64,000 bases of DNA from Burkholderiales bacterium. Its GTDB lineage: Bacteria > Pseudomonadota > Gammaproteobacteria > Burkholderiales > Burkholderiaceae_C. The DNA lies in contig RXJQ01000037.1 of assembly GCA_003963115.1 (NCBI GenBank), positions 1-64,000 of the forward strand, read 5' to 3'. Position 1 is the first letter of the stretch; every line of letters begins with the position of its first letter. Shown piece after piece: positions 10,588 to 25,228 of the stretch. The translations under genes were made by a program, and so were the position numbers. A model generated the notes under the pieces. It searched no databases and was not told the origin of the DNA. It was given only the letters and a program-made list of their open reading frames with translations.

Positions 10588-11121
10588 TCAATCGACCTTG
10601 ATGCGACGCAGCATGAATGTCGCCTCCTTGCCAAAGCTGGCCAGTTTCTCGGCGCGGATCAAAGGCGAGGGCAGCTCGGCTGGCTCGAAACCTTGCTTGC
10701 GCCAGAACGCAACCGAGTCCTGAACGGCGATGAGCCCCACGGCCAGCCATCCCTGACTGAACGCCAGTTCGTGGGCCTTGGAAAGCAGGACACCCGCCAA
10801 GCCCGCACCGCGGGCATCGGGGTGGATGGCGAGGTCATGCAGGTATAGCCACTGAGGGTGGGGTGGGGGATGCCACTCGGTGGCATGCAGAGCGGGCAAT
10901 TCATCCCCATCTATGGGTAGGCAGACCAGGTAGGCCAACAGGTCTGATGGGCCGTCGATCACCCAGGCGCTCGCAGGGGCGGCGTTGAGCTTGGCGGCGA
11001 AGGCCTGTTTCGGTTCGTGAAATTGAGGGGCGTAGCAGGTGCTTTGCAGGGAGATGACGGCATCCAGATCGCTCGTCTGCATGGTGCGCGCGGTGTGAAA
11101 ACTGGGTATGAAAGACGTCAT
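10588..11121 (-). CDS. GNAT family N-acetyltransferase
   Basis: Predicted acyl-CoA-dependent acetyltransferase of unknown substrate. The 177-residue single-domain protein shows the GNAT fold order: beta strands WVIDGPSDLLAYLVCLPI, then LYLHDLAIHPDARGAGLAGVLL with the acetyl-CoA pyrophosphate-binding motif A (R/Q-x-x-G-x-G/A like, here ARGAGLAG), and the C-terminal VGLIAVQDSVAFWRKQGF. The start ATG at 11121 is the only sensible one. It is in the same direction as the exporter unit, 125 bp upstream of the adaptor start, so cotranscription is possible but not shown. Confidence 0.85.
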   Translation of the reverse strand: MTSFIPSFHTARTMQTSDLDAVISLQSTCYAPQFHEPKQAFAAKLNAAPASAWVIDGPSDLLAYLVCLPIDGDELPALHATEWHPPPHPQWLYLHDLAIHPDARGAGLAGVLLSKAHELAFSQGWLAVGLIAVQDSVAFWRKQGFEPAELPSPLIRAEKLASFGKEATFMLRRIKVD

Positions 11122-11229
11122 GTGTGGGTGACTGGGCTCGCAAACGAATGCGCATTTTGCTCGGGGATCGAAAAACGGTGGCCGTAAACCGGGTTATGGT
11201 GAAATCCCCAATAGGGGTGGTATTTTTTA

Positions 11230-11288
11230 CGTCAATGCTTACCCTGAGATTGACGCCTTTTGGACAACTTACGGGGGGATCGATCCCC
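11230..11288. promoter_or_regulatory. Inverted repeat and palindrome in intergenic region upstream of the first secreted paralog
   Basis: In the 267 bp between the divergent GNAT gene and the first secreted-protein gene, CGTCAAT (11230-11236) is mirrored by ATTGACG (11249-11255) with a 12-nt spacer, and a perfect 14-bp palindrome GGGGATCGATCCCC lies at 11275-11288. These look like protein-binding sites or a leader structure; function is inferred only. Confidence 0.35.
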
Positions 11289-11317
11289 GAAGCAGGGGGG
11301 GTGAAGAAATTGGTGCT

Positions 11318-11388
11318 CGGGCAACATTAATCGCACATCAACACCGGTTTGCGCACAGCAGCAGGCCACCACCACTAGGAGCATCGAA
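11318..11388 (+). promoter_or_regulatory. Conserved leader of first secreted paralog
   Basis: CATCAACAC (11336-11344), TTTGCG just after, and CTAGGAG (11375-11381) precede the start codon. The same blocks occur at nearly the same distances upstream of the second paralog (13200-13251). AGGAG is 7 nt before the ATG, so it includes the ribosome binding site; the upstream block may be a promoter element or mRNA leader. Confidence 0.45.
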
Positions 11389-12063
11389 ATGCAAAAAGCC
11401 CTGTCGTTCCGCTCGATCGCCGTCGCCACCGCCCTGGTTGCTGCTGGCGCCTCGGCCCAAGCGGCCCTGACCATCCCCGCCAACTCTCTGGTTGCCAACT
11501 CGGTCCAGGCATTCTCGCAAGAGTCGCTGGACGCCTTCGACGTCGGCGGTGTGGTCGTGACACCCCTGGGCAACGCCACCGCCGTGGACGGCGTAACGGG
11601 CGCATACAGCTTCCCCATCACCTCGATCACCATCGACAACAACCTGAAGATCGCTGGCGGCTCCGCCAGCGGTTCGGCCCTGGAAATCTCGCGCGTCTAC
11701 CGCAACGTGAAGTACGCCGTGACCGTGGCCAACTTCACCATCAACTACACCACGCAGCAAGTGCTGGCTGACACCACTCCCCTGGGCGGCACCACCACCA
11801 AGCAAGCCCCTCTGTACAACTTCCATACGGCTACACCTCTGGCCATCAAGTACAAATTCCCCCTGTCGATCACCGGCCACGAAGTGCTGGATCAACTGAC
11901 CCTGACGCCCGAAATGACTGCCACCATGACTTCAGCTCTGGCTCTGACGCCCGTGCTGAAGTCCGCCCTGACTTCCATCAGCACCTTCGGTACCCTGACC
12001 CAGGACATCGCCGTCAAGCCGCGCGCCAAGCCTGTGTCCACGACGCCTTACACCCCTCAGTAA
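11389..12063 (+). CDS. Secreted protein of an unrecognised family, paralog 1
   Basis: I do not recognise this family. The 224-residue protein has a Sec signal peptide (MQKALSFRSIAVATALVAAG, likely cleavage after SAQA) and a mature part predicted as beta-rich with almost no Cys or charged clusters. Conserved blocks shared with the gene at 13252-13932 are LTIPANSLVANSVQAFS, the VANFTI-Y block, LYNF-T-TPL-IKYKF, and the terminal FG-LTQDIAVK-R-KPVS. Unlike the more distant paralog at 22479-23252, it lacks a C-terminal membrane anchor, ending KPVSTTPYTPQ, so it is probably periplasmic, outer-membrane-associated or released. AGGAG lies 7 nt before the ATG. It is followed by a strong terminator (12124-12165), so it appears monocistronic. 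Confidence 0.8.
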   Translation: MQKALSFRSIAVATALVAAGASAQAALTIPANSLVANSVQAFSQESLDAFDVGGVVVTPLGNATAVDGVTGAYSFPITSITIDNNLKIAGGSASGSALEISRVYRNVKYAVTVANFTINYTTQQVLADTTPLGGTTTKQAPLYNFHTATPLAIKYKFPLSITGHEVLDQLTLTPEMTATMTSALALTPVLKSALTSISTFGTLTQDIAVKPRAKPVSTTPYTPQ

Positions 12064-12081
12064 GTCGTTTCGACTCTTTAG

Positions 12082-12102
12082 CAGGGGCGCCCGGGGCCCC
12101 TG
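12082..12102 (+). other. GC-rich hairpin after paralog 1
   Basis: CAGGGGC (12082-12088) pairs perfectly with GCCCCTG (12096-12102) around a 7-nt loop, without a T run. It sits 18 bp after the stop codon, before the true terminator, and may protect the mRNA 3' end. Confidence 0.5.
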
Positions 12103-12123
12103 TGTCTCCTCTAGAAGCTCTTG

Positions 12124-12165
12124 AAGTCCTGCAAACGGCTGTTATGTTTGCAGGACTTGTTTTTT
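12124..12165 (+). terminator. Rho-independent terminator after paralog 1
   Basis: AAGTCCTGCAAAC (12124-12136) pairs over 13 bp with GTTTGCAGGACTT (12146-12158), with a 9-nt loop and T-rich tail (12160-12165). It separates the secreted gene from the membrane-anchored protein gene at 12257. Confidence 0.93.
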
Positions 12166-12256
12166 GGCAACGGCTTGATGCTGTGATGCAATCGCAGTGG
12201 CTTGTTCGTGCAGACTGCGGACAATTCGGTCAGATGTTCGTAGAGGTTCCCAAAAC

Positions 12257-13000
12257 ATGATCACGTACCAACGTTCCAAAACCTGGCAGATCGCGGTTGT
12301 CGGGTTGGCTGTTGCTGCTGCGGGTGCTGCGGCCTACTGGTGGTTTGGCCAGAAGGAAGGCGATGACCGCAGTGGTGTTGTCCTGGCAGACAACAAGGGC
12401 GGCCCATCGGGCTGGCTGAAGCCCAATATAGGCAACGACGATCCGGTTGCCGCGCTCAAACCCCCCGTCCTGTCTGATGGGCGCCCGTCCGACATTCAGC
12501 CGGACGACTGGACCATCCTGAATGCGGTCCTGGAGAAGATGGGCATGCAGAAGGCCGAGGGGCAGCGCATCGTCGGCTATCTGCGCTATCAGCACTCTTT
12601 CGAGTCCTGGCAGACGCTGGACGAAACCAAGGAAGCCAAGAAGCGTCAGCGCATGGCTCAGGCTCTGCTGGGCGAGTTGCCCGATCGCCTCGCCACAGGT
12701 GAGTTCACGCCGATCGAGGCCAATCTGATGGGCGCGGTCTTGCTCGCCGACCTCGAACCGGACGAAACCAAGCGCAACCAGCGCCTGGAAGAGATGCAGG
12801 CCAAGTTCAACACGATCATGCCCATGGGCGAGGACGAACAGCAGATGCAGGCCAAGAATCGCCAGACCGAGCTCAAGCGCCGGCAGGCGACAGCCTTTGC
12901 CGAATGGCAGGCCAAGACCAATCCGGCCGAGCGTACCCAGGCCAAGCTCGAGCAGGCCATGGAAGAAATCCGTCGCGCCTACAACAGCGGTGAGTTCTGA
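12257..13000 (+). CDS. Membrane-anchored, helical protein of unknown function
   Basis: Not recognised. The 247-residue protein begins MITYQRSKTW, then one strong membrane helix (about residues 10-28, IAVVGLAVAAAGAAAYWWF), a short polar Gly/Asp-rich linker, and a mostly helical, highly charged remainder (QRLEEMQAKFNTIM, ELKRRQATAFAEW, KLEQAMEEIRRAYNSGEF) likely facing the periplasm. Anchor plus linker plus extended helices resembles membrane-bound steric chaperones such as the lipase foldase Lif in layout, but I see no Lif sequence signature, so this is only an analogy. ATG 12257 follows AGAGG about 8 nt upstream; an upstream TTG would remove the N-terminal anchor position. It stands between the two similar secreted-protein genes, with its own 5' region after a terminator. 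Confidence 0.75.
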   Translation: MITYQRSKTWQIAVVGLAVAAAGAAAYWWFGQKEGDDRSGVVLADNKGGPSGWLKPNIGNDDPVAALKPPVLSDGRPSDIQPDDWTILNAVLEKMGMQKAEGQRIVGYLRYQHSFESWQTLDETKEAKKRQRMAQALLGELPDRLATGEFTPIEANLMGAVLLADLEPDETKRNQRLEEMQAKFNTIMPMGEDEQQMQAKNRQTELKRRQATAFAEWQAKTNPAERTQAKLEQAMEEIRRAYNSGEF

Positions 13001-13182
13001 GCTCTAAGAGGAGCACTCGGTGACAACCCGATCGGGTTAAGTGTTATTGCTAGTAAGATTGGTGTAATCCCTGATAAATCCCCCTGAAACGTGCTAAGTA
13101 ACAACCCTCGTATTGCGGGCATTGTTCACGTTTCCCGGGTTGACTCCCCCCGAGCCGAGGGGGCATTCGATGAGCGGGGCTG

Positions 13183-13251
13183 GGGCACCATTCTTACTAC
13201 ATCAACACGACTTGCGAAATGCAAGCAAATCGACCCCTAGGAGTCCTCGAG
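13183..13251 (+). promoter_or_regulatory. Conserved leader of second secreted paralog
   Basis: GGGGCACCATT, CATCAACAC (13200-13208), CTTGCG and CTAGGAG (13237-13243) match the leader of paralog 1 in order. The distance from CATCAACAC to the start codon is 52 nt here and 53 nt there. AGGAG is about 8 nt before the ATG. The rest of the 251-bp intergenic region (13001-13182) shows no gene. Confidence 0.45.
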
Positions 13252-13932
13252 ATGCGGTTTTCTTCTTTGTCCGTCCGTGCTGTTTCCATCGCCGCCGTGC
13301 TGGTCACTGCCACGGCCACAGCCCACGCCAATCTGACGATCCCCGTCAATGCCCTGGTTGCGGACTCCGTGCAGGCCTTCTCCTCGCTGGCCATGGACGC
13401 TTTTGACCTGCAAGCCGTGTCTGTGACCGCCCTGGGTAACGCCACGGCCGTTGCTGGTACCGACAACACCTTCAAGCTGCCGATCACCACGATCACCATT
13501 GGCTCCGGCCTGTCGATTGCCAAGGGTGATGCTCGCGGTTCCGCGCTGCAGTTTGCGCGTACCGCCAAGGGCGTGACCTACGCCGTCACGCTGGCCAACT
13601 TCACCATCGATTACACCCACAAGCAAGTGCTGGCCGATGTGACGCTCAAAGGTAACGCGACCACGGTCAAGCAACAGGCCATCTACAACTTCAACACCCA
13701 GACCCCGCTGGGCATCAAGTACAAGTTCCCTCTGAGCATCACGGCCCACGAAGTGCTGGACACCTTGATGCTGACCGAGGAAACGAAGACCTCCTTCATG
13801 ACGGGCCTGAAGCTGCCGGCCTACATCCGCGGCGTGCTGGACGAAACCGACTTCGGCAGCCTGACCCAGGACATCGCCGTCAAGTTCCGCTCCAAGCCCG
13901 TGTCGATGACACCTTACGTTCCTGCTCCCTGA
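13252..13932 (+). CDS. Secreted protein of an unrecognised family, paralog 2
   Basis: Close paralog of the protein at 11389-12063. The 226-residue product has a Sec signal peptide (MRFSSLSVRAVSIAAVLVTA, likely cleavage after AHA) and shares the blocks LTIPVNALVADSVQAFS, YAVTLANFTIDYTHKQVLAD, GIKYKFPLSIT, HEVLDTL and FGSLTQDIAVKFRSKPVS. It lacks the PEP-CTERM-like tail of paralog 3. ATG 13252 is chosen over an upstream in-frame ATG at 13219 because AGGAG lies 8 nt before it and the signal peptide then starts correctly. The downstream hairpin at 14014-14056 gives it its own terminator. The duplication includes the leader, suggesting a relatively recent tandem event with shared regulation. Confidence 0.8.
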   Translation: MRFSSLSVRAVSIAAVLVTATATAHANLTIPVNALVADSVQAFSSLAMDAFDLQAVSVTALGNATAVAGTDNTFKLPITTITIGSGLSIAKGDARGSALQFARTAKGVTYAVTLANFTIDYTHKQVLADVTLKGNATTVKQQAIYNFNTQTPLGIKYKFPLSITAHEVLDTLMLTEETKTSFMTGLKLPAYIRGVLDETDFGSLTQDIAVKFRSKPVSMTPYVPAP

Positions 13933-14013
13933 GCGGCGGCGCGTCCAGCCTGAATTTCTTTCCAGATCTCTCCAGCGTGTCCTGAACACGTCGCCCCATG
14001 GTGGTGGGGCTTG

Positions 14014-14066
14014 AGCCTGCAGAGCCCGGGTCATCAACCCAGGTGTTCTGCAGGCTATTTTGTTTT
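14014..14066 (+). terminator. Rho-independent terminator after paralog 2
   Basis: AGCCTGCAGA (14014-14023) pairs with TCTGCAGGCT (14047-14056); the loop contains a small GGGT/ACCC inner stem, and a T-rich tail follows to 14066. Confidence 0.8.
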
Positions 14067-14165
14067 GCGATAGTTTACGCAGATGCATCGTGTTACTTGT
14101 CGACCTGGCAAGCATCTGACGCGTTGTCTCTTCCAAAGAACTATCGAAGCACTGCTGGGAATCTC

Positions 14166-14804
14166 ATGCTTTCTGCGAAATGGATATGGCGCGCGGCGCG
14201 CCGGGCAGGCGTTGTCGCGCTGACGCTGGGTTTGTCGGCTGGTCTGGGTGTGCCCTTGGCGGCTTGTGCGGCAGGCGAGGCCCAGGTCGCGACCCTGGAA
14301 GGCCAGCGTTTCGAAGACACCACCACCCTCGCTGACCGGACTTTGCGCCTCAATGGCCTGGGGCTGCGCGGGGTGGCCTGGATCAAGGCTTTCGTGGCGG
14401 GGCTGTACCTGTCGGCGCCGAGCAAGGATTCGGCCCAGATCCTGGCGATGCCGGGCCCCAAGCGCATCCGGCTCAAGATCATGCTCGATGCACCCAGCCA
14501 CGAGTTGACCAAGTCGCTGACGGGCCGCATCGAGGACCACGAACCCGCGGCGGTTCGCGTCAAGCTGGGAGACCGCTTGACCAAGCTGGGCGCGCTGATC
14601 GACGGCCTGGGTGACCTCAAGGTGGGTGACGTGCTCGATCTGGATTTCATTCCGGACAAGGGCGTCAGCCTGCGTTTCAACGACAAGGTGGTGGGCGTGC
14701 CCGTGGCCGGCGACGATCTGTACCGCTGCGTGCTGAAGATCTTTGTGGGCGACCAGCCGGTGGACCGCCGCATGAAGGAGGGGCTGCTGCGTGGCGGTTA
14801 CTGA
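14166..14804 (+). CDS. Chalcone isomerase-like exported protein
   Basis: Belongs to the bacterial chalcone isomerase-like family (PF16036 type), periplasmic proteins of unknown role in bacteria that lack flavonoid pathways. The 212-residue product from ATG 14166 has a signal peptide (ARRAGVVALTLGLSAGLG, cleavage near LAACAAG) and the family core: LRLNGLGLRGVAWIKAFVAG followed by LYLSAPSKDSAQIL, KRIRLKIMLDA, and C-terminal DLYRCVLKIFVGDQPVD. Longer in-frame starts would give an N-terminus without signal peptide character. The 3' end overlaps the xerD GTG start by 14 nt, so the two are likely cotranscribed, though no functional link is evident. Confidence 0.85.
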   Translation: MLSAKWIWRAARRAGVVALTLGLSAGLGVPLAACAAGEAQVATLEGQRFEDTTTLADRTLRLNGLGLRGVAWIKAFVAGLYLSAPSKDSAQILAMPGPKRIRLKIMLDAPSHELTKSLTGRIEDHEPAAVRVKLGDRLTKLGALIDGLGDLKVGDVLDLDFIPDKGVSLRFNDKVVGVPVAGDDLYRCVLKIFVGDQPVDRRMKEGLLRGGY

Positions 14805-15705
14805 GGGGTTGGCCGAGCAGGATCCCCACCTGGACCGCTTTGTCGACTCGATCTGGCTTGAAGACGGCTTGAGTGCCAACACCCTGGCGGCCTACCGGCG
14901 CGACCTTCAAGGCCTGAGCGCCTGGCTGGTGGCGCAGGCGGTGGGGCGCACGCTGGTCTCGGCCAGTGAGGCGGATCTGCACGGCTATACGGCCGCGCGT
15001 CATGCCCAGACCAGGCCCTCGTCGGCCGGGCGCAGGCTCAGCGTGTTTCGGCGCTTCTACCGCTGGGCAGTGCGCGAAGGGCTGTGCACCGAGGACCCCA
15101 CCGTTCGCATGGACGCCCCCAGGCAACGTATGCGCCTGCCCGGCACCCTGAGCGAGCACCAGGTCGAATCACTTCTGGCTGCACCAGATGTCCATGAGTC
15201 GCTGGGCCTGCGTGATCGGGCCATGCTGGAGCTGCTGTATGCAAGCGGCCTGCGCGTGAGCGAACTGGTTGCGCTCAAGTCCGTGCACGTGGGCCTGAAC
15301 GAGGGCGTGCTGCGTGTGATGGGCAAGGGCAGCAAGGAGCGGCTGGTGCCGTTCGGCGTGGAAGCCGGCGAGTGGCTGCAGCGCTATCTGAGTCAAGGGC
15401 GCCCTTTGATCCTGGGCAACCAGGTGAGCGAGGCCCTCTTCGTGACCGGGCGCGGTGGGCCCATGACTCGCCAGATGTTCTGGAAACTGATCAAGAAGTA
15501 CGCGCTGCAGGCGGGCATCACCCAGCCCTTGTCGCCCCACACCTTGCGCCATGCTTTTGCCACGCACCTGCTCAACCATGGCGCGGACTTGCGTGTCGTG
15601 CAGATGCTGCTGGGGCACGCCGACATTTCGACGACCCAGGTCTACACGCACGTGGCGCGCGAGCGGCTTCGGCAACTGCACGCCAAGCACCACCCACGCG
15701 GGTGA
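14791..15705 (+). CDS. xerD: Site-specific tyrosine recombinase XerD
   Basis: Resolves chromosome dimers at dif together with XerC and FtsK. The 304-residue protein has the N-terminal SAM-like core-binding domain (FVDSIWLEDGLSANTLAAYR) and the catalytic domain with Arg in ASGLRVSELV, Lys in MGKGSKER, His-x-x-Arg in HTLRHAFATHLL, His in LLGHADISTTQ and the Tyr nucleophile in VYTHV. XerD rather than XerC is preferred from the N-terminal ENTLAAYRRDL-like stretch and the C-terminal RERLRQLHAKHHPR. It starts with GTG at 14791 inside the end of the previous gene, with AAGGAGG upstream. Confidence 0.95.
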   Translation: MAVTEGLAEQDPHLDRFVDSIWLEDGLSANTLAAYRRDLQGLSAWLVAQAVGRTLVSASEADLHGYTAARHAQTRPSSAGRRLSVFRRFYRWAVREGLCTEDPTVRMDAPRQRMRLPGTLSEHQVESLLAAPDVHESLGLRDRAMLELLYASGLRVSELVALKSVHVGLNEGVLRVMGKGSKERLVPFGVEAGEWLQRYLSQGRPLILGNQVSEALFVTGRGGPMTRQMFWKLIKKYALQAGITQPLSPHTLRHAFATHLLNHGADLRVVQMLLGHADISTTQVYTHVARERLRQLHAKHHPRG

Positions 15706-15729
15706 GCTTGGCTTGGACGGCAACCGTGC

Positions 15730-16563
15730 TCAGTCCACCCCAAGCAGAAAGGCCAGTTCTTCCTCGGTGAAGCCGGCGGCCTTGCGCGCGGCCTCGTTGA
15801 ACGGAGGGCGCAGCCTCGGTGCTTCATATTGCCGCACCAGTTGCGGATAGAGCGCAACCGCATCGAGCCCGCGCGCCTGGCACAGATGGTGGAACCAGCG
15901 GTTGCCGATGGCCACATGGCCGACCTCGTCGCGCAGGATGATGTCGAGGATCGCCACGGCGCGCGCGTCGCCGGCCTTGCTCAGCTTGTCCTGGATCAGC
16001 GGTGTGGCGTCCAGGCCACGCGCTTCCAGGGTGCGGGGCACCAGCGCCATGCGGGCCAGGATGTCATTGCTGGTCTTCTCGCACATGGTCCACAGACCGT
16101 CGTGGGCGTCGAAGTCGCCATAGTCCCAGCCCAGCGTTTGCAGGTGTTCGCGCAGCAGCTGGAAGTGAAGGGCCTCCTCGGCCGCCACGCTGAACCAGTC
16201 CGTGTAGAACGCCGCCGGCATGCCTGCGAAGCGCCATACGGCGTCCAGCGCCAGGTTGATGGCGTTGAACTCGATGTGGCAGATGGCGTGGAGCAGCGCC
16301 GCACGGCCTTCCAGCGTGAACGGCGAGCGCGAAGGCACTTGCTTGGCTGGCACGAGCTGGGGCTTGTCGGGCCGGACGGGCATGAGTAGATGCTGCTCAG
16401 GCGTCAGCGCGATGTGCGCTGATCGCGCTTTGTCAGGCAGCAGTTCAGTCAAGCCCAATGCGCGCGACCGATCCACTTCGGCCCAGCATGCCAGCGCAGC
16501 AGATGCTTTGCGGGCCGGGTCGGGTATCAGGAGGATCTCAAGGGCATGGTGTCGCAGGCTCAT
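15730..16563 (-). CDS. DUF455 family ferritin-like protein
   Basis: Conserved protein of unknown role, DUF455 family, related to ferritin-like diiron proteins. The 277-residue product from ATG 16563 has candidate metal ligands in four-helix bundle positions: HIEFNAINLALDAVWRF, AAEEALHFQLLREHLQ and LRDEVGHVAIGNRWF (E-x-x-H pattern). The N-terminal part MSLRHHALEILLIPDPARK is typical; longer in-frame starts add a low-complexity segment without support. Convergent with xerD (24 bp between stops) and downstream of uppP in the same direction (34 bp), so possibly cotranscribed with it. Confidence 0.85.
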   Translation of the reverse strand: MSLRHHALEILLIPDPARKASAALACWAEVDRSRALGLTELLPDKARSAHIALTPEQHLLMPVRPDKPQLVPAKQVPSRSPFTLEGRAALLHAICHIEFNAINLALDAVWRFAGMPAAFYTDWFSVAAEEALHFQLLREHLQTLGWDYGDFDAHDGLWTMCEKTSNDILARMALVPRTLEARGLDATPLIQDKLSKAGDARAVAILDIILRDEVGHVAIGNRWFHHLCQARGLDAVALYPQLVRQYEAPRLRPPFNEAARKAAGFTEEELAFLLGVD

Positions 16564-16597
16564 GCGCGTATTGTGCGCGCACGGGTCCTCACGAACC

Positions 16598-17440
16598 TCA
16601 CTCCTGCCAGGTGACCCAGCCCATGTGCGCCGACACCAGGATGAAGATCCCGAAGGCGATGCGGTACCAGGCAAAGGGGAGGAAGTTGTGGCTGGAGATG
16701 TAGCGGATCAACCAGCGCACGCACATCCAGGCCGACACGAAGGCAAACACGAGGCCCACGCTGAACAGAGGCAGATCGTCCGGCGAGAGCAGGGCGCGTT
16801 CCTTGTAGAGGCTGTAGACGCCCGCGCCAACCAAGGTGGGGATGCCCAGGAAGAAGCTGAAGTCGGTGGCGGCCTTGCGCGACAGGCCCATCAGCATGCC
16901 GCCGATGATGGTGGCGCCCGAACGACTGGTGCCGGGCACCAAGGCCAGGCATTGCAGCAAACCCACTTTCAGCGCGTCCAGCACACTCATATCGTCAACA
17001 GTTTCGATTCGATGCTGCGAACGCTGTGCCGCGAAGCGCTCGGCGATCAGGATGATCAGGCCGCCGAGGATGAAAGTCGTGGCCACGACCGTGGCGTTGA
17101 ACAGATGGGCCTTGATGGTCTTGCCTAACAACAGGCCAAACACCACAGCGGGCAGGAAGCCGACGAACACGTTCAGGGCAAAGCGTTGCGCCTTGGGGTC
17201 TGAAGCGATGCCGGTGACGGTGTCCTTCACCCGCTGCATGTAGACCAGGATCACGGCGAAGATGGCGCCGGTCTGGATCGCGATCTCGAAGACCTTGGCC
17301 TTGTCCGCACCTGCGCTGCGCGCAAACTCCAGCAGCGAGTCGGCCAGGATCAGGTGGCCGGTACTGGAGATGGGCAAGAACTCGGTCAGACCTTCCACGA
17401 TGCCCATCAGGGCAGATTTCATGAACAGCACGATATCCAC
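16598..17440 (-). CDS. uppP: Undecaprenyl-diphosphatase (bacitracin resistance protein)
   Basis: Integral membrane phosphatase that recycles undecaprenyl pyrophosphate, the lipid carrier for peptidoglycan and other wall polymers; overproduction gives bacitracin resistance. The 280-residue protein has the two family signatures: [17 protein letters not shown] (residues about 15-31) and [15 protein letters not shown] (about 162-176) containing the catalytic Glu, His and Arg/Ser residues, with about eight membrane helices. The start is GTG at 17440; ATG at 17422 ([11 protein letters not shown]) is an alternative and the sequence does not decide. Divergent from selO. Confidence 0.95.
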
Positions 17441-17475
17441 GTTCGAGGTCTCGCAAAAGTCGGGGGGAGCCGCAT

Positions 17476-17491
17476 CTTAGGACAGCCTAAG
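17476..17491. promoter_or_regulatory. Short inverted repeat between uppP and selO
   Basis: CTTAGG (17476-17481) and CCTAAG (17486-17491) form a perfect 6-bp inverted repeat with a 4-nt centre in the 110-bp divergent region. It could be an operator or incidental; a TAAACT -10-like hexamer for selO lies at about 17535. Confidence 0.25.
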
Positions 17492-17550
17492 CGGTCTCAT
17501 TAGCCGACCCTGCCCCAGGGACAGGGGGGCTTGTCTAAACTGCGCGACAT

Positions 17551-19131
17551 ATGTCTGCTGCACTGAATTCCCCTTTACAGAACTTTTCCTGGTCGCCCGA
17601 GCCCGCCAAATGGCTGAATCGGTTCGCGCAATTGAGCGAGTACACACAGGCCAGCTGGCAAACGCCATTGGGTGTGGCTTGGCAAGGGGATGCCCTGCCC
17701 AGCCCCAAGTGGGTGGCGCTCAACCATGGCCTGGCCGGTGAGCTGGGCTGGCCTGTGCACTGGCATCTGAATGAGTCGGGCGATGGGCCACAGACCTCTG
17801 CCCTGGCTGTGCTGACGGGCAATGGCGTATGGCCGGGCATGTCGCCCTTCACCTCGGTCTACAGTGGGCACCAGTTTGGTGTGTGGGCCGGGCAACTGGG
17901 TGATGGGCGAGCCTTGCTGCTGGGCGAAATCGACGCGCCCATCGGCCCGCAGGAGATCCAGCTCAAAGGCGCTGGCGCGACGCCATATTCGCGGCGGGGC
18001 GATGGGCGTGCGGTGCTGCGCTCGTCCATCCGCGAGTACCTGTGCAGCGAGGCCATGCATGGCTTGGGCATCCCGACCACGCGTGCGCTGAGCCTGGTGG
18101 CCTCACCTCAGCCGGTGCGCCGCGAGACCATCGAGACAGCGGCTGTGGTTGCGCGCGTCGCGCCCAGCTTCATCCGCTTCGGGCATTTCGAGCATTTCGC
18201 TTACAGCGGCGAGCCGGGCCACGCCGACGTCTTGCAGGCCTTGGTCGACTTCGTCGTGACGCACCACTACCCTGAACTGGCTGATGCCCCCAACCGCGCG
18301 CTGGCTTTGCTGGATGCAGTGGTGGCGCGCACTGCCGAGCTGATGGCGCACTGGCAGTCCGTGGGCTTCTGCCACGGTGTGATGAACACCGACAACATGT
18401 CCATCCTGGGGCTTACGATCGACTATGGGCCTTTCGGCTTCCTGGATGGCTTCGACCCCAACCACATCTGCAACCACTCAGACGACCGCGGCCGCTACGC
18501 CTGGAACAACCAGCCCCAGATCGGCTACTGGAATCTGCGCGCACTGGCGCAAGCCTTGCTGCCTTTGATTCCGCAGGCCAAGGACGATGAAGCCAAGGTC
18601 GTGATCGACGTGCTGCAGACCTACGAGCAGCGCTTTCCGCAGGCCATGCGCGCACGTTGGCGGGCCAAGCTGGGCTTGCAGACCGCCCACGATGCCGATG
18701 GGCAACTGGCCCTTGATCTGCTGCAAGCCATGGCCACAGGCAAAGCCGACTTCACCATCACCTTCCGGCGCCTGTGTGACTACCGCACCGAACTGCCGCC
18801 CGAGCACGAGGCCAATGCCCCTGTGCGTGACCTGTTCCTGGACCGTGCGGCTTTCGATGCCTGGGCCGAGCGCTACCGCGATCGACTGGGTGCCGAGGGC
18901 AGCGTGGACGCCGAGCGTGCGCAGCGCATGCGGCGTGTCAACCCGGTCTATGTGCTGCGCAATCACATGGCCGAGCTGGCGATCCAGCGGGCGCAAAAAG
19001 GCGACTACAGTGAGGTGCAGCGCCTGCATCAGCTCCTGCAGCGGCCGTTCGACGAGCAGCCTGGCGCAGAAGCCGACGCAGGGTTCCCGCCCGACTGGGC
19101 CCAGGCCATCGAGGTGTCTTGTTCATCATGA
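17551..19131 (+). CDS. selO: Protein adenylyltransferase SelO (YdiU family)
   Basis: SelO family pseudokinase-fold enzyme that transfers AMP from ATP to protein Ser/Thr/Tyr residues; bacterial homologs AMPylate redox proteins. The 526-residue protein has [20 protein letters not shown], the nucleotide-binding stretch [27 protein letters not shown] (from residue 278) and [11 protein letters not shown] (from 291), with Asp residues corresponding to metal ligands. It ends IEVSCSS: Cys524 is in the position occupied by selenocysteine in animal SelO. It overlaps msrB by ATGA, and msrB, yciB, bolA and a PPIase follow with short gaps. Confidence 0.95.
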
Positions 19132-19532
19132 GCGATTACAAAGTCAAGAAAACCGACGCCGAATGGCGTGCGCAACTGGATCCCATGGACTACCAGGTCA
19201 CCCGCGAGGCGGCCACCGAGCGCGCCTTCACGGGCCGCTATTGGGACCATTTCGAGGACGGCGCCTACAAGTGCATCTGCTGTGGCGCCAAGCTGTTCGA
19301 GTCTGAGACCAAGTTCGATGCGGGATGCGGCTGGCCCAGCTACTCGCAGCCCGCGCAGGACGGCATCATCGAGCGCGTCATGGACCGCAGCCACGGCATG
19401 ATCCGTGTGGAGGTGCGCTGCCAGAACTGCGGTGCCCATCTGGGCCATGTCTTCGATGACGGCCCCCAACCCACGGGGGAGCGGTTCTGCATCAATTCGG
19501 CCGCGCTAGACTTCGTGCCGCGCGACGAGTGA
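19128..19532 (+). CDS. msrB: Peptide methionine-(R)-S-oxide reductase
   Basis: Reduces methionine-R-sulfoxide in proteins, using thioredoxin. The 134-residue protein has the zinc CxxC pairs (Cys49/Cys52 in CICC, Cys98/Cys101 in CQNC), the conserved [12 protein letters not shown] and the catalytic Cys121 in [12 protein letters not shown] 19128 overlaps the selO TGA (ATGA), so translation is probably coupled; an upstream TTG at 19119 is rejected because it lacks that arrangement. In mammals the orthologous catalytic residue is selenocysteine, here Cys. Confidence 0.96.
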
Positions 19533-19571
19533 TCGCGGTAACCATCGGCCGGTCAATCGGCCGGCCCATTC

Positions 19572-20207
19572 ATGAAAATATTCTTCGACCTGCTGCCCAT
19601 CATCCTGTTCTTTGCCAGCTTCAAATGGGCAGAAGGGCACGAGGCGCAAGCCGCGCAGTGGATGAATCAATACCTGGGGTTTGCGGTCTCGGGTGGAAGC
19701 GTGGACGTCAAGGAGTCGCCCATTCTGTTGGCAACCGTCGTGGTCATTGCGATGACGCTGCTGCAGGTCGTGGTGCTCAAGGTCCTGCGCAAGCCCGTTG
19801 ACAAGATGCTGTGGGCCGGGTTGGCAGTGGTCGTGGTGCTGGGCGGCCTGACGCTGTGGTTCCACGACGAGACCTTCATCAAGTGGAAGCCCACCGTCAT
19901 CTACTGGCTGATGGCGGGCGGCTTCTTTGTCACCGAGATCGTGCAAGGGCGCAAGATGCTGGCGCAGATGATGGGTGGGCAGGTGGATGCACCCGACGCG
20001 GTCTGGCGCCAGCTGGGCTGGGCCTGGGTTCTGTTCTTCGCCGGCATGGGCGTGCTCAACCTCTGGGTGGCCTTCCACTTTCCCCGGAGTACCTGGGTCA
20101 ATTTCAAGATGTGGGGCAGCCTGGGCTTGACCCTGGTGTTTACCCTTGCGCAAGGCCTGTATCTGGGGCGCCACATGCAGCCCGAGAAGGCTGGCGAATC
20201 CGATTGA
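19572..20207 (+). CDS. yciB: Inner-membrane septation/envelope protein YciB (IspZ)
   Basis: Polytopic inner-membrane protein implicated in cell envelope maintenance and intracellular septation. The 211-residue product begins MKIFFDLLPIILFFASFKW, a family hallmark, and has about five membrane helices, including LATVVVIAMTLLQVVVLKVL and the block RKPVDKMLWAGLAV. The motif WKPTVIYWLMAGGFF is conserved. It is 39 bp after msrB and 26 bp before bolA, in the order commonly found in Burkholderiales. The short spacer 19533-19571 contains a GGCCGG-rich repeat. Confidence 0.93.
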   Translation: MKIFFDLLPIILFFASFKWAEGHEAQAAQWMNQYLGFAVSGGSVDVKESPILLATVVVIAMTLLQVVVLKVLRKPVDKMLWAGLAVVVVLGGLTLWFHDETFIKWKPTVIYWLMAGGFFVTEIVQGRKMLAQMMGGQVDAPDAVWRQLGWAWVLFFAGMGVLNLWVAFHFPRSTWVNFKMWGSLGLTLVFTLAQGLYLGRHMQPEKAGESD

Positions 20208-20233
20208 ACTTATCGCCACGAAAGGGCTCCATG

Positions 20234-20509
20234 ATGAGCATCGCTCCCGTGACCGCCAGTCAGCTGGAAGCCGCACTGCGCAAGGCTTTACAGCCGGAGT
20301 CCTGTGCCGTGACGGACGACAGCAGCCAGCACGCGGGGCATGCAGGGTCCAGTGGCGCGCTCTCGGGCACGCACTTTTCGGTGCATGTGCGGGCAGGCTG
20401 CTTCAACGGCTTGTCACACGTTCAGCGGCATCGGCTTGTGTATGATGCCCTGCGCGATTTGATTCCCCAGGGCGTTCATGCTTTGGCGATCAAAGCCGAA
20501 CCCGTCTGA
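20234..20509 (+). CDS. bolA: BolA family protein
   Basis: Small BolA/IbaG-type protein; family members bind monothiol glutaredoxins and [2Fe-2S] clusters and affect morphology and stress response. The 91-residue product has the typical SSQHAGHAG segment, with conserved His for cluster binding, THFSVHVRAGCFNGLSHVQRH (shown only as outline) and LVYDALRDLI. Two adjacent ATG codons exist; 20234 is preferred because AGGG lies 7 nt upstream, 20231 would have only 4 nt. Located between yciB and the PPIase gene. Confidence 0.9.
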   Translation: MSIAPVTASQLEAALRKALQPESCAVTDDSSQHAGHAGSSGALSGTHFSVHVRAGCFNGLSHVQRHRLVYDALRDLIPQGVHALAIKAEPV

Positions 20510-20540
20510 TGAATCATTCCTAAAGCTTTATTCGCTCACC

Positions 20541-21368
20541 ATGAAGACTTCTCGTATCGCCAAGGCAGCCATGCTGGCCGCAACGCTCTCGCTGGCCGCT
20601 CCGCTGGTGTTCGCGCAAAACATCGCCACCGTCAATGGCAAGCCCGTGCCCAAGGCCCGTGTCGATGCCATGCTGGACCAGATCCTCAAGCAGCCTCAAC
20701 AGCCCGGCCAACCGCCCATGACCAAGTCGCCCGAACTGGAGCAGAAGGTCAAGGATGAAATCGTGCTGCGCGAGATCTTCCTGCAAGAAGCCGAGCGCCG
20801 TGGCCTGCAAGCCACCGCCGACTACAAGACCCAGATGGAATTCGCCCGTCAGTCCATCCTGATCCGCGCGCTGTTCCAGGACTTCGAAAAGAAGAGCCCC
20901 ACGACCGACGCCGAAGCCCGCGCCGAGTACGACAAGATCAAGGCGGCCAACGGCGACAAGGAATACCGTGCACGCCACATCCTGGTCGAGAAGGAAGAAG
21001 ACGCCAAGGCCTTGATCGCCCAGATCAAGGGCGGCGCCAAGTTCGAAGACGTGGCCAAGAAAAACTCCAAGGACCCCGGCTCTGCCGAGAACGGTGGCGA
21101 TCTGGACTGGGCCAACCCCGGCAACTACGTGCCCGAGTTCTCTGCTGCGCTGACCAAGCTGGAAAAGGGCCAGATGACCGACACGCCCGTGAAGTCGCAG
21201 TTTGGCTACCACATCATCAAGCTGGAAGACGTGCGTGAAACGAAGTTCCCCAGCTTTGACGAAGTCAAACCCCAGATCCTCCAGCGCCAGAACCAGGCCA
21301 AGCTGGCCAAGTTCCGCGACGACCTGAAGGCCAAGGCCAAGACTGACTACAAGTTCGGCGCCAACTGA
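20541..21368 (+). CDS. Periplasmic parvulin-type peptidyl-prolyl isomerase
   Basis: PpiC/SurA-like foldase acting on exported proteins. The 275-residue product has a Sec signal peptide (AAMLAATLSLAAPLVFA, cleavage before QNIATVNG), a helical SurA-N-like region (IVLREIFLQEAERRGL), the parvulin rotamase domain from EYRARHILVEKEEDAKA to QFGYHIIKLEDVRE and a Lys-rich helical tail. ATG 20541 gives the signal peptide. It is the last gene of the selO-msrB-yciB-bolA run and is followed by a terminator. Confidence 0.93.
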   Translation: MKTSRIAKAAMLAATLSLAAPLVFAQNIATVNGKPVPKARVDAMLDQILKQPQQPGQPPMTKSPELEQKVKDEIVLREIFLQEAERRGLQATADYKTQMEFARQSILIRALFQDFEKKSPTTDAEARAEYDKIKAANGDKEYRARHILVEKEEDAKALIAQIKGGAKFEDVAKKNSKDPGSAENGGDLDWANPGNYVPEFSAALTKLEKGQMTDTPVKSQFGYHIIKLEDVRETKFPSFDEVKPQILQRQNQAKLAKFRDDLKAKAKTDYKFGAN

Positions 21369-21391
21369 TTCAGCGCGCGATCAAAAGCAAG

Positions 21392-21420
21392 ACAGCCTGC
21401 ACTGCGCAGGCTGTTTTTTT
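21392..21420 (+). terminator. Rho-independent terminator after PPIase gene
   Basis: ACAGCCTGC (21392-21400) pairs with GCAGGCTGT (21406-21414), loop ACTGC, followed by a run of seven T residues. Confidence 0.93.
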
Positions 21421-21455
21421 ATGCGCGCCTTTTTCATGCGCGTTCATGCGTGCGA

Positions 21456-22202
21456 TCAGGGCTTCTTGCGAAACACCAGGTCCCACACGCCATGGCCCAG
21501 TCGCAGGCCGCGGTTCTCGAACTTGGTCAACGGGCGGTAGGCAGGCTTGTCGGCGTAGCCTCGGGCCGTGTTGGCCAGGCTGGGTTCGGCCGAGAGCACT
21601 TCCAGCATCTGCTGGGCGTAGGGCTCCCAGTCGGTGGCCAGGTGCAGATAGCCGCCGGGTGCAAGGTGATGAACCAGCTTGGCCACGAAGGCCGGCTGGA
21701 TCAGGCGGCGCTTGTGGTGGCGCTTCTTGTGCCAGGGGTCGGGGAAGAACACGTGCACGCCGGCCAGGCTGTCGGCCGCGATCATGTTTTCCAGCACCTC
21801 CACGGCGTCATGGCGGATCAGGCGCAGGTTGTTCAACTGCATCTCGCCGATGTGCTTGAGCAGGGCGCCCACGCCGGGCTCGTGCACTTCGCAACCAATG
21901 AAGTCGGTGTCGGGCAGGGCCTGCGCGATCTTGGCGGTGGCGTCGCCCATGCCGAAGCCGATCTCCAGCACCACGGGTGCCTGGCGGCCAAAGGTGGCCT
22001 CAAAGTCCAGGGTGCCTGGCGTGTAGGGCAGCAGAAAGCGCGGGCCCAATTCAGCCAGTGCGCGGGCCTGGCCTTCCGTGGTGCGGCCTGCACGCATCAC
22101 GTAGCTGCGGATGGTGCGCGCGTGGGCCGGTATGGAGGAGTGGGTGTCACCCGAGATGTCGATGGGGGTGTCGTCGTTGGGGGCGGGGGCGCTGCTGGAC
22201 AT
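21456..22202 (-). CDS. trmB: tRNA (guanine-N7-)-methyltransferase
   Basis: Methylates G46 of the tRNA variable loop using S-adenosylmethionine. The 248-residue protein has the SAM-binding motif [15 protein letters not shown], the signature [16 protein letters not shown], and the C-terminal [20 protein letters not shown] 22202 (MSSSAPAP) is chosen; a TTG three codons upstream is possible. The first 30 residues are a poorly conserved, probably disordered extension. It is convergent with the PPIase gene and divergent from the PEP-CTERM-like gene. Confidence 0.95.
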
Positions 22203-22478
22203 GCAAGACAAGTAAGTGGCTGAACACGATCGAGGTCGAGAGTGTGCCTCAGTCTGGGGTGTCTGGCGCGCAGGCGGGTGGTCGTGAGGTATTCACGATT
22301 TCATTTTTTGCATATTTGCCGCACACCCGTAAATCGGCCTTTTCGGCCCTGTGCTTATTTCACGAGCGTTGCTTTTAATTGCAATTGACTGGGGTCTTCG
22401 CTAGGTTTTGCGTCCCCCCATATCAAGGGATTGGCTGCATGATTGATCCAACAGAACGGATTTCGAGGAGTTATTCTC
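22203..22478. promoter_or_regulatory. Divergent intergenic region trmB / paralog 3
   Basis: No gene is seen in these 276 bp. Relatively AT-rich stretches (22300-22390) include the palindrome AATTGCAATT (22377-22386), directly followed by TTGACT, a possible -35 hexamer. GGCC-TTTTC-GGCC at about 22336-22348 can form a small hairpin. The promoter of paralog 3 probably lies here. Confidence 0.3.
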
Positions 22479-23252
22479 GTGAGCACCATCCAATACACCT
22501 TTAAAGCCGCTGGCCTCGCCGCCATCGCCTCCCTGACGCTGTCGACTTCCGCCAGTGCCTTGACGCTGGACACCACGGCCCTGGCGGCCAACTCGGTCTT
22601 CACGCTGTCACAGGATGCGCTGGACGCCATGAACGCGGCCAGTACCAATATGTCGGCCTTGGGCATCGCCTCCGCCGCAGCTGGTGTCAAGTCCTCAAGC
22701 GGAGACCTGCTGCCATCTTTCAACCTGCCGGTGACCAAGGTGGACGTTTCGCTGGGCCTGCCGCCCTTCTCGCCACTGGTATCGCCCAACTGGGGTGATG
22801 CCACCGGGTCGGCCTTGGCCATCACGCGCGGCTCACGCTCAGTGGTATTGGCCAATTTCGTGATCGATTACTCGAAAGACCTGGTTTTGGCAGATATTAC
22901 TGCCAATGGCGTCACGACAAAAGGCACCTCGCTGTATTCATTCACCGCCACGAATTTGAATATTGGCTTGAATGGCCTGACCTTGAATATGCACCAGCAA
23001 TTGAGCAATCTGGTGTTCACGGATACAGCGCTGGCCTCTTTCACCTCTGGCTTGAATCTGAGCAAGGCCCTGGCCACGCCGCTCAAGACACTGGACTTTG
23101 GCACGATCACGATCGACATCAACGGCGCGCTGCGTTCGCCGGTGAACGCCACGCCGTTTACCGCCGCCGTGCCTGAAGCGCCTCCTGCTCTGATGCTGGG
23201 GCTGGGCCTGTGCGGTATCGCCCTGGTGGCGCGTCGCAAGATGCAGTCCTGA
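22479..23252 (+). CDS. Secreted protein of the same unrecognised family, paralog 3, with PEP-CTERM-like anchor
   Basis: Third and most divergent member of the family at 11389-12063 and 13252-13932. The 257-residue product has a signal peptide ending SASA, then family blocks ALTLDTTALAANSVFTLSQD, ALAITRGSRSVVLANFVIDY, DLVLADIT and TLDFGTITIDINGALRSPVN. The C-terminus VPEAPPALMLGLGLCGIALV followed by ARRKMQS is a PEP-CTERM-like sorting signal (P-E motif, hydrophobic helix, basic tail), expected to be processed by an EpsH/XrtA-type exosortase; none is in the window. The start is GTG at 22479 with GGAG 9 nt upstream; the nearby ATG at 22439 is out of frame. Confidence 0.8.
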   Translation: MSTIQYTFKAAGLAAIASLTLSTSASALTLDTTALAANSVFTLSQDALDAMNAASTNMSALGIASAAAGVKSSSGDLLPSFNLPVTKVDVSLGLPPFSPLVSPNWGDATGSALAITRGSRSVVLANFVIDYSKDLVLADITANGVTTKGTSLYSFTATNLNIGLNGLTLNMHQQLSNLVFTDTALASFTSGLNLSKALATPLKTLDFGTITIDINGALRSPVNATPFTAAVPEAPPALMLGLGLCGIALVARRKMQS

Positions 23253-23254
23253 CA

Positions 23255-23502
23255 AATGATGGGTTGGCCGTCGGCGACGCGCACGCGAAGCTCGGCCAAC
23301 ATGTCGTATTCAGACAGGTCGGCGGCCCAGGTGGGCCGCAGTTCATGGTGCGGCCGGTCCTTGAAGCTTTGCCAGTTGCCGCCCCCATTGAGCCGCAACT
23401 TCATCCCGATCGCGCCGACCACGTCGTCGTTCTGTTTTGGGCGTGCAGGGCGTTCTGCCCTTCGTAAGAGCGGAAGCCTGAGATCATTTTGATCTTATAG
23501 GT
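23255..23502 (-). pseudogene. Remnant of an M15-family peptidase (D-alanyl-D-alanine carboxypeptidase / endolysin-like)
   Basis: On the minus strand, one frame from 23502 reads TYKIKMISGFRSYEGQNALH and then AQN, the N-terminal part of an M15 peptidase domain. Near 23425-23440 homology jumps to another frame reading NDDVVGAIGMKLRLNGGGNW then QSFKDRPHHELRPTWAADLS, the C-terminal part with the zinc-ligand His of P-H-x-E-L. The central segment with the S-x-H-x-x-G-x-A-x-D zinc site is missing, so an internal deletion with frameshift has occurred. Its end abuts paralog 3 tail-to-tail and no proper stop after the conserved end is seen. With 23503-23615 this fills the 363-bp gap between paralog 3 and the tRNA gene; nothing else is recognised there. 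Confidence 0.75.
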
Positions 23503-23615
23503 TTGGCATCTGCTGGGCTCAATCCCCAGCCCAATAGCGAGGCCTGTACGAGCGTGTCGCAAAAGTGTCGCCATGGACAGGCGCTGATTCTGTGCAAGCT
23601 ACAATGGTTGGCAAC

Positions 23616-23689
23616 GCGGGTGTCGTTCAATGGTAGGACTCTTGCTTCCCAAGCAAATAACGTGGGTTCGATTCCCATCACCCGCTCCA
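23616..23689 (+). tRNA. tRNA-Gly (anticodon CCC)
   Basis: A 74-nt cloverleaf with encoded CCA: acceptor GCGGGTG pairs with CACCCGC (23679-23685), discriminator T, CCA at 23687-23689. The D arm GTTC/GGAC and T arm TGGG-TTCGATT-CCCA are regular. The anticodon loop TTCCCAA (23646-23652) gives CCC. The first anticodon-stem pair appears to be C-A. A TACAAT -10-like hexamer lies at 23600-23605. It is followed by short hairpin sequence AAAGGCCGGTCACAGACCGG plus CCCTTTTTC, a likely terminator (about 23697-23724). Confidence 0.95.
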
Positions 23690-23696
23690 GATGCGC

Positions 23697-23725
23697 AAAG
23701 GCCGGTCACAGACCGGCCCTTTTTC
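23697..23725 (+). terminator. Terminator after tRNA-Gly
   Basis: AAAGGCCGGTC (from 23697) pairs with GACCGGCCCTTT and a short T run follows, just downstream of the tRNA; the convergent gabD stop at 23741 lies close behind. Confidence 0.75.
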
Positions 23726-23740
23726 ATGGGCGATGCGGTC

Positions 23741-25228
23741 TTACTTGTCCAGCCCGCCCAGGCAGATGTACTTGGCCTCGAGGTACTCGTCGATCCCTTG
23801 ACGGGCGCCTTCACGGCCCAGACCTGACTGCTTGACGCCGCCGAACGGCACCTCGCAGGTCGAGATCAGGCCGGTGTTGACGCCCACCATGCCGTACTCC
23901 AGGCCTTCACTGACCCGGTAGATGCGGCCCATGTCGCGGCTGAAGAAATAGCTGGCCAGACCGAATTCGGTGTCGTTGGCCAGCTCGATGGCCTCGGCTT
24001 CGGTGTCGAACTTGAACACCGGGGCGACCGGGCCAAAGATCTCCTCGCGGGCCAGGCGCATGCTGGCTGATACGTTGGACAGCACCGTCGGCTGGTAGAA
24101 CTGGCCGCCAGGGATGTCGGCGCGCGCACCGCCGGTCACCACCTTGGCACCCTTGATCAAGGCGTCGGCGACCAAGGTCTCCACCTTGTCGAGTGCTTGG
24201 GCGTCGATGAGCGGGCCTTGCGTCACGCCGGCGTCGAAGCCGTTGCCAACCTTCATCTGCTTGACGCGCTCGGCCAGCTTGGCCACGAAGGCGTCGTAGA
24301 CACCCGCTTGCGCATACAGGCGGTTGGCGCACACACAGGTCTGGCCGGCGTTGCGGTACTTGCTGATCATGGCGCCCTCGACGGCGGCGTCCAGATCGGC
24401 ATCATCGAAAACGATGAAGGGCGCGTTGCCGCCCAGCTCCAGCCCCAGCTTCTTGATCGTGGGGGCGCATTGCTGCATCAGGATGCGACCCACCTCGGTC
24501 GAGCCGGTGAAGGACAGATGCCGCACGACATCGCTGGCGCACAGGGCCTTGCCCACTGCGATGGACTGGTCTGCGTCGGCCGTGATGATGTTGAGCACAC
24601 CGGCGGGCATGCCGGCGCGCAGGGCCAGTTCGGCCACGGCCAGCGCCGACAGCGGCGTGGCCTCGGCCGGCTTGATGACCACCGGGCAGCCGGCTGCCAG
24701 GGCAGGGGCCACCTTGCGGGTGATCATCGCAATCGGGAAGTTCCAGGGCGTGATCGCGGCACACACGCCCACCGGCTGGCGCACGACCATGAAACGTTTG
24801 CTCGGGTCGGTGCTGGGTACGGTTTCCCCATAGACGCGGCGGGCCTCTTCGGCAAACCATTCGATGAAGCTGGCGCCATAACCCACCTCGCCCTTGGCCT
24901 CGGCCAGCGGCTTGCCTTGCTCGGCGGTCATGATGCGGGCCAGGTCATCGGCGTGCTGGTTCAACAACTGGAACCACTTCATCATGATGGCGGCGCGTGC
25001 CTTGGCGGTCAGGCCGCGCCAGGCGGGCCAGGCGCGATTGGCGGCGGCAATCGCCGCTTCGGTGTGCTCGGCCCCCAGGTTGGGCACCTCGGCCAGGGTG
25101 GCGCCAGTGGCCGGGTCGGTCACGGCGAAACGCTGCGTGCTGCCCACCCACTGGCCGTCGATCAGGGCCTGGGTTTTAAGCAGGGTGGGGTCTTGCAGTG
25201 AGGCCAGCGGGGCGGCAGTGGTGTTCAT
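23741..25228 (-). CDS. gabD: NADP+-dependent succinate-semialdehyde dehydrogenase
   Basis: Oxidises succinate semialdehyde to succinate, in GABA and related catabolism. The 495-residue aldehyde dehydrogenase has the cofactor-binding [14 protein letters not shown], the glycine motif FTGSTEVGR, the general base Glu in [18 protein letters not shown] and catalytic Cys in [11 protein letters not shown]; the second Cys two residues later is typical of GabD, where a redox switch is known. The C-terminal [17 protein letters not shown] is conserved. Assignment to GabD over other aldehyde dehydrogenases rests on overall similarity to the class; no gabT is adjacent. Divergent from alaS. Confidence 0.9.

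Follow-up and report, generated by a model that had tools for sequence, protein, structure and literature searches.

A nearly genus-restricted family of tailed and untailed putative exoproteins from Aquabacterium with a predicted HtaA-like fold and a recurrent OmpW-family neighbour gene

A stretch of 64,000 nucleotides from a Burkholderiales bacterium (NCBI GenBank assembly GCA_003963115.1, contig RXJQ01000037.1, positions 1 to 64,000; hereafter the window) encodes three related proteins, P0001, P0002 and P0003 (Table 1). They belong to a family of paralogues that occurs in two forms, one ending in a PEP-CTERM-type sorting tail and the other lacking it. With moderate confidence, we read the family as surface or matrix exoproteins of the HtaA fold, sorted by an exosortase in one form and free in the other, which probably work together with an OmpW-like outer-membrane barrel.

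The three open reading frames (ORFs) had been picked out in an earlier note on this DNA, and their homology is confirmed by single-pair BLASTP comparisons. P0001 and P0002 share 57% identity (expect (E) value 4e-82), and P0003 is 36% identical to each of them (E 2e-26 with P0001 and 2e-32 with P0002). The shared blocks that the note described are real, with A-N-F-x-I-x-Y, V-L-A-D and F-G-x-x-T-x-D-I invariant across all three proteins. Their N-termini resemble signal peptides (...SAQA, ...TAHA and ...SASA, by eye), and they have a common end, PVxxTP[YF]. Past that end, P0003 alone continues with VPEAPPALMLGLGLCGIALVARRKMQS, in which a PEP-like motif reading VPEA, a hydrophobic stretch and a basic end can all be seen by eye; P0001 and P0002 carry no tail, as the note had stated. 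The best NCBIfam PEP-CTERM match of P0003 is NF038126 (FxDxF PEP-CTERM) with 25.6 bits, below the cut-off of 50, and the PepA model NF033554 gives 17.9 bits, below its cut-off of 80. Further in-frame start codons lie upstream of the chosen ones for P0002 (ATG at 13219) and P0003 (TTG at 22443). Scans of the three proteins with Pfam and NCBIfam give no domain at cut-off for the body, and the best PHROGs match has an E value of 0.25. In profile searches all three align with one another, and no characterised family is matched by sequence.

The family extends beyond the three members first described. A profile of the window proteins gave one further clear copy in the genome of origin, and a wider profile lacking the tail finds 12 members there; two more weak matches, obtained with the first profile at E 0.04 and 0.38, are left out of this count. 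Crossing the members with PEP-CTERM matches gives nine tailed ones, on contigs 32, 36 (two), 44, 63, 75, 84 (two) and 86. The three untailed ones are P0001, P0002 and contig 86:34229, which adjoins the tailed member of its contig.

Outside this genome, the three-row profile matches 40 of the 42 genomes of the same genus and none of 107 others (149 relatives, the named ones being Aquabacterium); the two genus genomes lacking a match are 75% and 86% complete. A larger profile matches 4 of 299 family-level genomes, all four from the genus. Profile A3 matches 120 of 300 genomes, the genome of origin included, and its listed matches outside the genus mostly cover the tail end, so that a tailless profile, A5, was made; among 399 genomes of the order, it recovers the genome of origin and two marginal partial matches (E 0.001 and 0.008). 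Scanning of named genomes yielded 20 loci, with 17 titled Aquabacterium, two Burkholderiales (L047 and L055) and one Sideroxyarcus (L049), the last a 4.7-kb contig of a metagenome-assembled genome. The large surveys scored only the best 7-9 candidates per genome, and weak relatives outside the genus may escape them. Judged by titles, the papers searched on PEP-CTERM in Aquabacterium, on PEP-CTERM with exosortase and heme and on the HtaA domain in proteobacteria revealed no such proteins. As far as the genome surveys reach, the family is almost confined to the genus Aquabacterium.

Iterated profile searching of 80 fetched regions and the window gathered 161 members, which offer a closer view of the tail. 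With 71 tailed and 90 untailed members, this set bears out the earlier description of paralogues with differing sorting signals. Profile matches stop before the tail, many tailed relatives have textbook tails (for example VPEPSTYALMGLGLVGISLVARRRAK in L107), and eight of the nine tailed members of the genome of origin score over the PEP-CTERM Pfam cut-off. On the IQ-TREE phylogeny of the 161 members, tail state changes three times, or twice when the long-branch row L107_10302 is omitted. Untailed rows form one clade of 84, to which P0001 and P0002 belong, and one of 5, with Shimodaira-Hasegawa-like approximate likelihood ratio (SH-aLRT) supports of 100 and 96, respectively. Tail loss is the simpler reading because tailed rows stand on both sides of the midpoint root, and the tail looks ancestral, with two or three apparent losses. 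The phylogeny was computed quickly and without bootstrap, with long branches flagged and the midpoint root taken as is. Tails had been cut beforehand by preliminary labels, so that the input held four untailed rows lacking their last part and three tailed rows with the tail kept; the final counts use corrected labels. Among the untailed proteins, 28 of 90 end in VPAP at the position where tailed ones have VPE[PA], an ending that may be the stump of the lost motif.

The earlier note also proposed that the family is under diversification, which does not hold as a statement about selection. Ratios of nonsynonymous to synonymous substitution rates (dN/dS) between orthologues are 0.21-0.30 for P0001 (three genomes), about 0.23 for P0002 (three) and 0.10-0.12 for P0003 (two). 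Over 14 orthologue pairs, including the contig-86 member and pairs between related genomes, they span 0.08-0.30, and the paralogues P0001 and P0002 give 0.46. The orthologue pairs show purifying selection, looser in the untailed genes, and pairwise dN/dS gives no support for positive selection. Both P0001 and P0002 have orthologues in three other genomes, and the tandem pair is older than the split of these species. The effective number of codons (29.8 for P0001, 35.8 for P0002 and 45.2 for P0003, against 28-42 for 13 other window genes) gives no clear result as a sign of high expression.

The genome of origin also encodes exosortases. It has eight Exosortase_EpsH matches, four full-length and four partial, and all full-length ones are XrtB (280-343 bits, cut-off 275). 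Exosortase genes, which the note had proposed to look for, are present; their type is XrtB, and XrtA scores fall below the cut-off for all four. EpsF, EpsG-like and EpsI genes lie in the same stretches as the XrtB exosortases, which are located on contigs 21 and 107 (L220, L221 and L222). PEP-CTERM matches number 53 in this genome, 49 of them over the cut-off. Taken together with the signal-peptide-like starts and the 71 tailed members, these genes make the surface or extracellular place suggested in the note likely, and the matrix role named along with it is suggested by comparison with PepA. In an Aquincola tertiaricarbonis rpoN1 mutant, overexpression of PepA raised cell-bound exopolysaccharide, lowered the soluble fraction and restored flocs (PMC9850573). 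By analogy with PepA of the related Aquincola, we would place the tailed members in the matrix. Sigma-54 promoters are known for pepA. Upstream of 71 tailed and 88 untailed members, nothing scored at least 10 of 12 against the sigma-54 consensus.

The AlphaFold2 model of P0002, built from a 48-row alignment (A2), is of good quality, with a predicted local distance difference test score (pLDDT) of 87.4 and a predicted template modelling score of 0.80. In a Foldseek search of the PDB, its ranks 1-7 are all conserved-region (CR) domains of HtaA from Corynebacterium (E 6.9e-6 to 0.018, probability 1.00). Three matches reach E <= 0.001, all to HtaA, and rank 8 drops to E 0.09 and a probability of 0.07. 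The structural matches are 10-14% identical in sequence. P0002 is accordingly predicted to be a single-domain beta-sandwich with the fold of the HtaA CR domain, including helices alpha1 and alpha2. A second model, of the diverged tailed member L043:893-1714 (pLDDT 84.0; 21-27% identical to the window proteins), again has HtaA as its two best matches, though weak ones (E 0.0097 with probability 0.97, and E 0.037 with probability 0.92). On the strength of these models, the HtaA fold is very likely for the family, and common descent with HtaA is plausible. The earlier statement that no domain could be recognised holds for Pfam and NCBIfam body domains at their cut-offs, but the fold is probably a known one.

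HtaA itself is scarce in the phylum: its Pfam family PF04213 is found in 3 of 349 genomes at E <= 0.01 and in none over the cut-off. There are no PF04213 matches in the genome of origin at E <= 1 and none in Pfam scans of the three window proteins and 10 relatives. Used as a query against PDB sequences, the weak match L174 recovered no HtaA sequence.

The likeness to HtaA raises the question of heme binding. In CR domains, hemin iron is held by a Tyr of alpha1 that stands four positions beyond a conserved Ser; a His or Tyr of the beta6-beta7 loop acts as helper, and a further Tyr lies near alpha2 (PMC12494546). We located the corresponding site by this Ser-to-Tyr spacing, not by superposition. 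A Ser or Thr begins alpha1 in 139 of the 161 members, and four residues on, the position is occupied by Leu, Ile or Met in 105 members and by Tyr in 7. A Tyr anywhere in alpha1 occurs in 26 members and in none of P0001, P0002 and P0003 (alpha1 being residues 42-57 of P0002). For the helper residue, the loop was located from residue spacing alone; at its hairpin columns 103, 106 and 107, neither His nor Tyr ranks with the most frequent residues. Because the axial Tyr is missing from alpha1, P0001, P0002 and P0003 are not expected to bind heme in the manner of HtaA. That the family might consist of true hemophores, i.e., heme-binding HtaA-family proteins of Gram-negatives, would agree with the fold match of P0002 and with the seven members that have Tyr at the HtaA motif spacing (PMC12494546). 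However, given the window proteins without any Tyr in alpha1 and a genome without a PF04213 match, we consider this very improbable.

Gene neighbourhoods elsewhere in the genus provide a further clue to function. The commonest family locus consists of tyrS, one to four tailed members, an OmpW-family gene and untailed members. At 22 loci, an OmpW-family gene is immediately preceded by a tailed member on the same strand, with gaps or overlaps of 8-256 bases by match coordinates; 18 of these loci are at tyrS and 4 elsewhere. Untailed members follow in 17 of the 18 tyrS loci, on the other strand in 7 of the 17. In the genome of origin, contig 84 carries tyrS, two tailed members, an OmpW gene (Pfam OmpW, PF03922, 55.8 bits, cut-off 24) and then an OmpA-like barrel gene; the untailed members sit apart from this locus, two in the window and one on contig 86. 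Regions with an OmpW gene contain 40 of the 71 tailed and 35 of the 90 untailed members, though the 80 regions were picked around profile matches and such neighbour counts are no census. In a sample of 245 genomes, the OmpW-like protein is found at full length in the four genus genomes and over two thirds of its length in two genomes of one other genus; in the other 42 matching genomes, the matches listed cover about half or less. The repeated position of tailed genes directly before an OmpW-family gene suggests that the family probably acts at the outer surface together with that barrel and there binds either a component of the matrix or a small ligand.

The same neighbourhood bears on how the family would function there. 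If the domain were a purely structural matrix filler, binding exopolysaccharide or itself only, the proximity of OmpW genes would be due to chance or inherited order. The effect of PepA overexpression on bound and soluble exopolysaccharide in the Aquincola rpoN1 mutant (PMC9850573) and the presence of XrtB together with exopolysaccharide genes in the genome of origin are in line with such a role. We nevertheless think it clearly unlikely, as the order of tailed member and OmpW gene recurs away from tyrS in four genomes.

Alternatively, the proteins might be ligand scavengers that keep an HtaA-like pocket for another ligand, perhaps a hydrophobic one, and pass it to the OmpW-like channel, with tailed members as surface-held receptors and untailed ones as free carriers. 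HtaA, which the P0002 model matches, is a carrier fold (PMC12494546), the expected axial Tyr position is held by Leu, Ile or Met in most members, and the neighbouring OmpW-family gene could supply the channel. The nearest relative of the OmpW-like protein outside the genus in the sample (L244:1498-2556, genome G572, aligned over two thirds of its length) is encoded one small gene away from an AlkB-like alkane monooxygenase gene (by eye), a hint at hydrophobic substrates. Against scavenging, no conserved polar ligand set was found, Gly202 being the only invariant column of the 48-row alignment A2. Nor is there a TonB receptor among the recurrent neighbours scanned, which were representatives of 10 of the 35 clusters obtained by single linkage from 542 called ORFs, with the window left out. 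We regard ligand scavenging as unlikely, and rank surface or matrix binding first and ligand capture second. Its fullest form would be a Gram-negative carrier system without a counterpart in the papers searched, in which HtaA-fold exoproteins, some slime-held and some free, take up a ligand other than heme and deliver it to an OmpW-like channel of their own; this is speculative and in our view quite unlikely.

Several observations weigh against surface or matrix exoproteins of the HtaA fold acting with an OmpW-like barrel. The genes of P0001, P0002 and P0003 are not beside an OmpW gene, and the 18 tyrS loci probably represent one locus inherited by descent, so that they are not independent. 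The tail of P0003 scores below the PEP-CTERM cut-off, with PEA in place of PEP. Structural agreement between P0002 and HtaA is modest, with template modelling (TM) scores of 0.43-0.47 by query and 0.58-0.62 by target for single-domain entries and root-mean-square deviations of 5.8-8.3. The L043:893-1714 model has no match at E <= 1e-3, and its TM scores by query are 0.31-0.33 for the three best-placed HtaA entries. Sequence searches, with profiles A2 and A3 against PDB sequences and with the hidden Markov model (HMM) PF04213 against the genome of origin, do not reach HtaA. Finally, in the Aquincola study (PMC9850573), flocs did not return with several other PEP-CTERM genes that were tried, nor did biofilm with PepA; a role in flocs or matrix can therefore not be assumed for any one member.

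The reading as exosortase-sorted and free exoproteins can be cast into a simple scheme. The ancestral form would have been an exported protein with a PEP-CTERM-type tail at its end. This tail is most likely cut by an exosortase (XrtB in this genome), which then passes the protein to the surface or to exopolysaccharide, as proposed for PEP-CTERM proteins such as PepA. In the large clade with P0001 and P0002, the tail would have been lost right at the PEP position, so that its members are probably soluble after release or kept in the periplasm.

In the window, P0001, the gene that follows it and P0002 are flanked by acetyltransferase and chalcone-isomerase-like genes; P0003, 10 kb on, lies between trmB-like methyltransferase and aldehyde-dehydrogenase-like (by eye) genes. 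This order, and with it the layout of untailed member, other gene and untailed member with a tailed member about 10 kb on, is kept in genomes G003 and G038. The product of the PlcR-like gene between P0001 and P0002 has an N-terminal hydrophobic stretch (by eye) and no Pfam match, and five further, weaker matches to it exist in the genome of origin. PlcR-like relatives adjoin untailed members at seven other loci (L110, L123, L131, L136, L155, L164 and L165), where the housekeeping genes of the window were not found; two of these, L131 and L155, are short contigs (4 and 8 kb). At eight loci (L096, L115, L119, L128, L140, L146, L160 and L170), an untailed member is followed by a hemerythrin-like (HHE) gene of like direction, and in L110, L123, L131, L164 and L165 the PlcR-like gene stands between the two. 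Deep-branching untailed members in L100, L114, L129, L134, L135 and L172 are adjoined by a protein of about 300 amino acids (aa), exported as judged by eye, which has no match in Pfam (one representative) or NCBIfam (two representatives).

Upstream and downstream sequences show a few further features. Six terminator-like sites were found in the region, with 3.1 expected; the one after P0001 has the longest stem, and P0001 may be on its own transcript. A C4+/G4+ inverted repeat occurs 35-170 bases before the start of 47 of 88 untailed versus 5 of 71 tailed members (shuffle mean 2.6), shared descent accounting for part of this count. RNA folding upstream gives weak z-scores, on average -1.3 near the start of untailed genes and -0.7 for tailed ones. 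Rfam finds only a tRNA in 9000-24000.

Table 1. Positions of family members and accompanying features in the window
Feature	Position	Strand	Remarks
P0001, untailed family member, 224 aa	11389..12063	+	ATG start; signal peptide about residues 1-25
P0002, untailed family member, 226 aa; member modelled	13252..13932	+	ATG start; signal peptide about residues 1-26
P0003, tailed family member, 257 aa	22479..23252	+	GTG start
PEP-CTERM-like tail of P0003, VPEAPPALMLGLGLCGIALVARRKMQS	23169..23249	+	PF07589 13.2 bits (protein scan), 17.6 bits (genome search); cut-off 20.7
Gene between P0001 and P0002, weakly PlcR-like (phospholipase C accessory protein)	12257..13000	+	TIGR03398 35.8 bits, cut-off 99.1
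Intrinsic-terminator-like hairpin after P0001	12124..12158	+	14 pairs then GTTTTTT
C4+/G4+ inverted repeat upstream of P0001	11285..11301	+	
C4+/G4+ inverted repeat upstream of P0002	13146..13163	+	
tRNA gene, downstream of P0003	23616-23686		Rfam

Genomes like this one encode dozens of PEP-CTERM proteins, many of which have bodies that lack an assigned fold or function. For one such body there is now a fold prediction, a clear pattern of tail loss inside a genus and a recurrent outer-membrane partner gene. Since a single cell encodes paralogues of the same fold with and without the tail, the role of the exosortase tail could be tested directly. If the likeness to HtaA reflects common descent, Gram-negatives possess a non-heme branch of a heme-carrier fold that is known from Actinobacteria.

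Compared with known systems, the family resembles HtaA and its CR domains (PF04213) in predicted fold, in being an exported domain and in the Ser or Thr at the start of alpha1. It differs from them in the absence of an HMM match, in the low identity of the structural matches, in the missing axial Tyr of the window proteins, in its Gram-negative host and in the exosortase-type tail of many members. With PEP-CTERM/exosortase proteins (PF07589 and TIGR02595, e.g., PepA, NF033554), it shares the N-terminal signal, the three-part tail and a genome with exosortases; unlike them, P0003 reaches no NCBIfam PEP-CTERM cut-off, and most untailed members fall into one tail-loss clade. ZepA, a zinc exoprotein of Anabaena found outside the cell, likewise combines a signal peptide, a beta-sandwich and a PEP-CTERM tail, but by its description (PMC10957091) it differs in possessing zinc sites and a second domain and in occurring across several phyla. 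In the case of OmpW barrels (PF03922), the likeness is that of the partner gene after the tailed members and not of the family itself; the partner is about 360-460 aa long as called, longer than the 212-position NCBIfam OmpW model. A carrier system of slime-held and free forms, should it exist, would parallel the secreted and surface-displayed heme-binding CR proteins of Corynebacterium.

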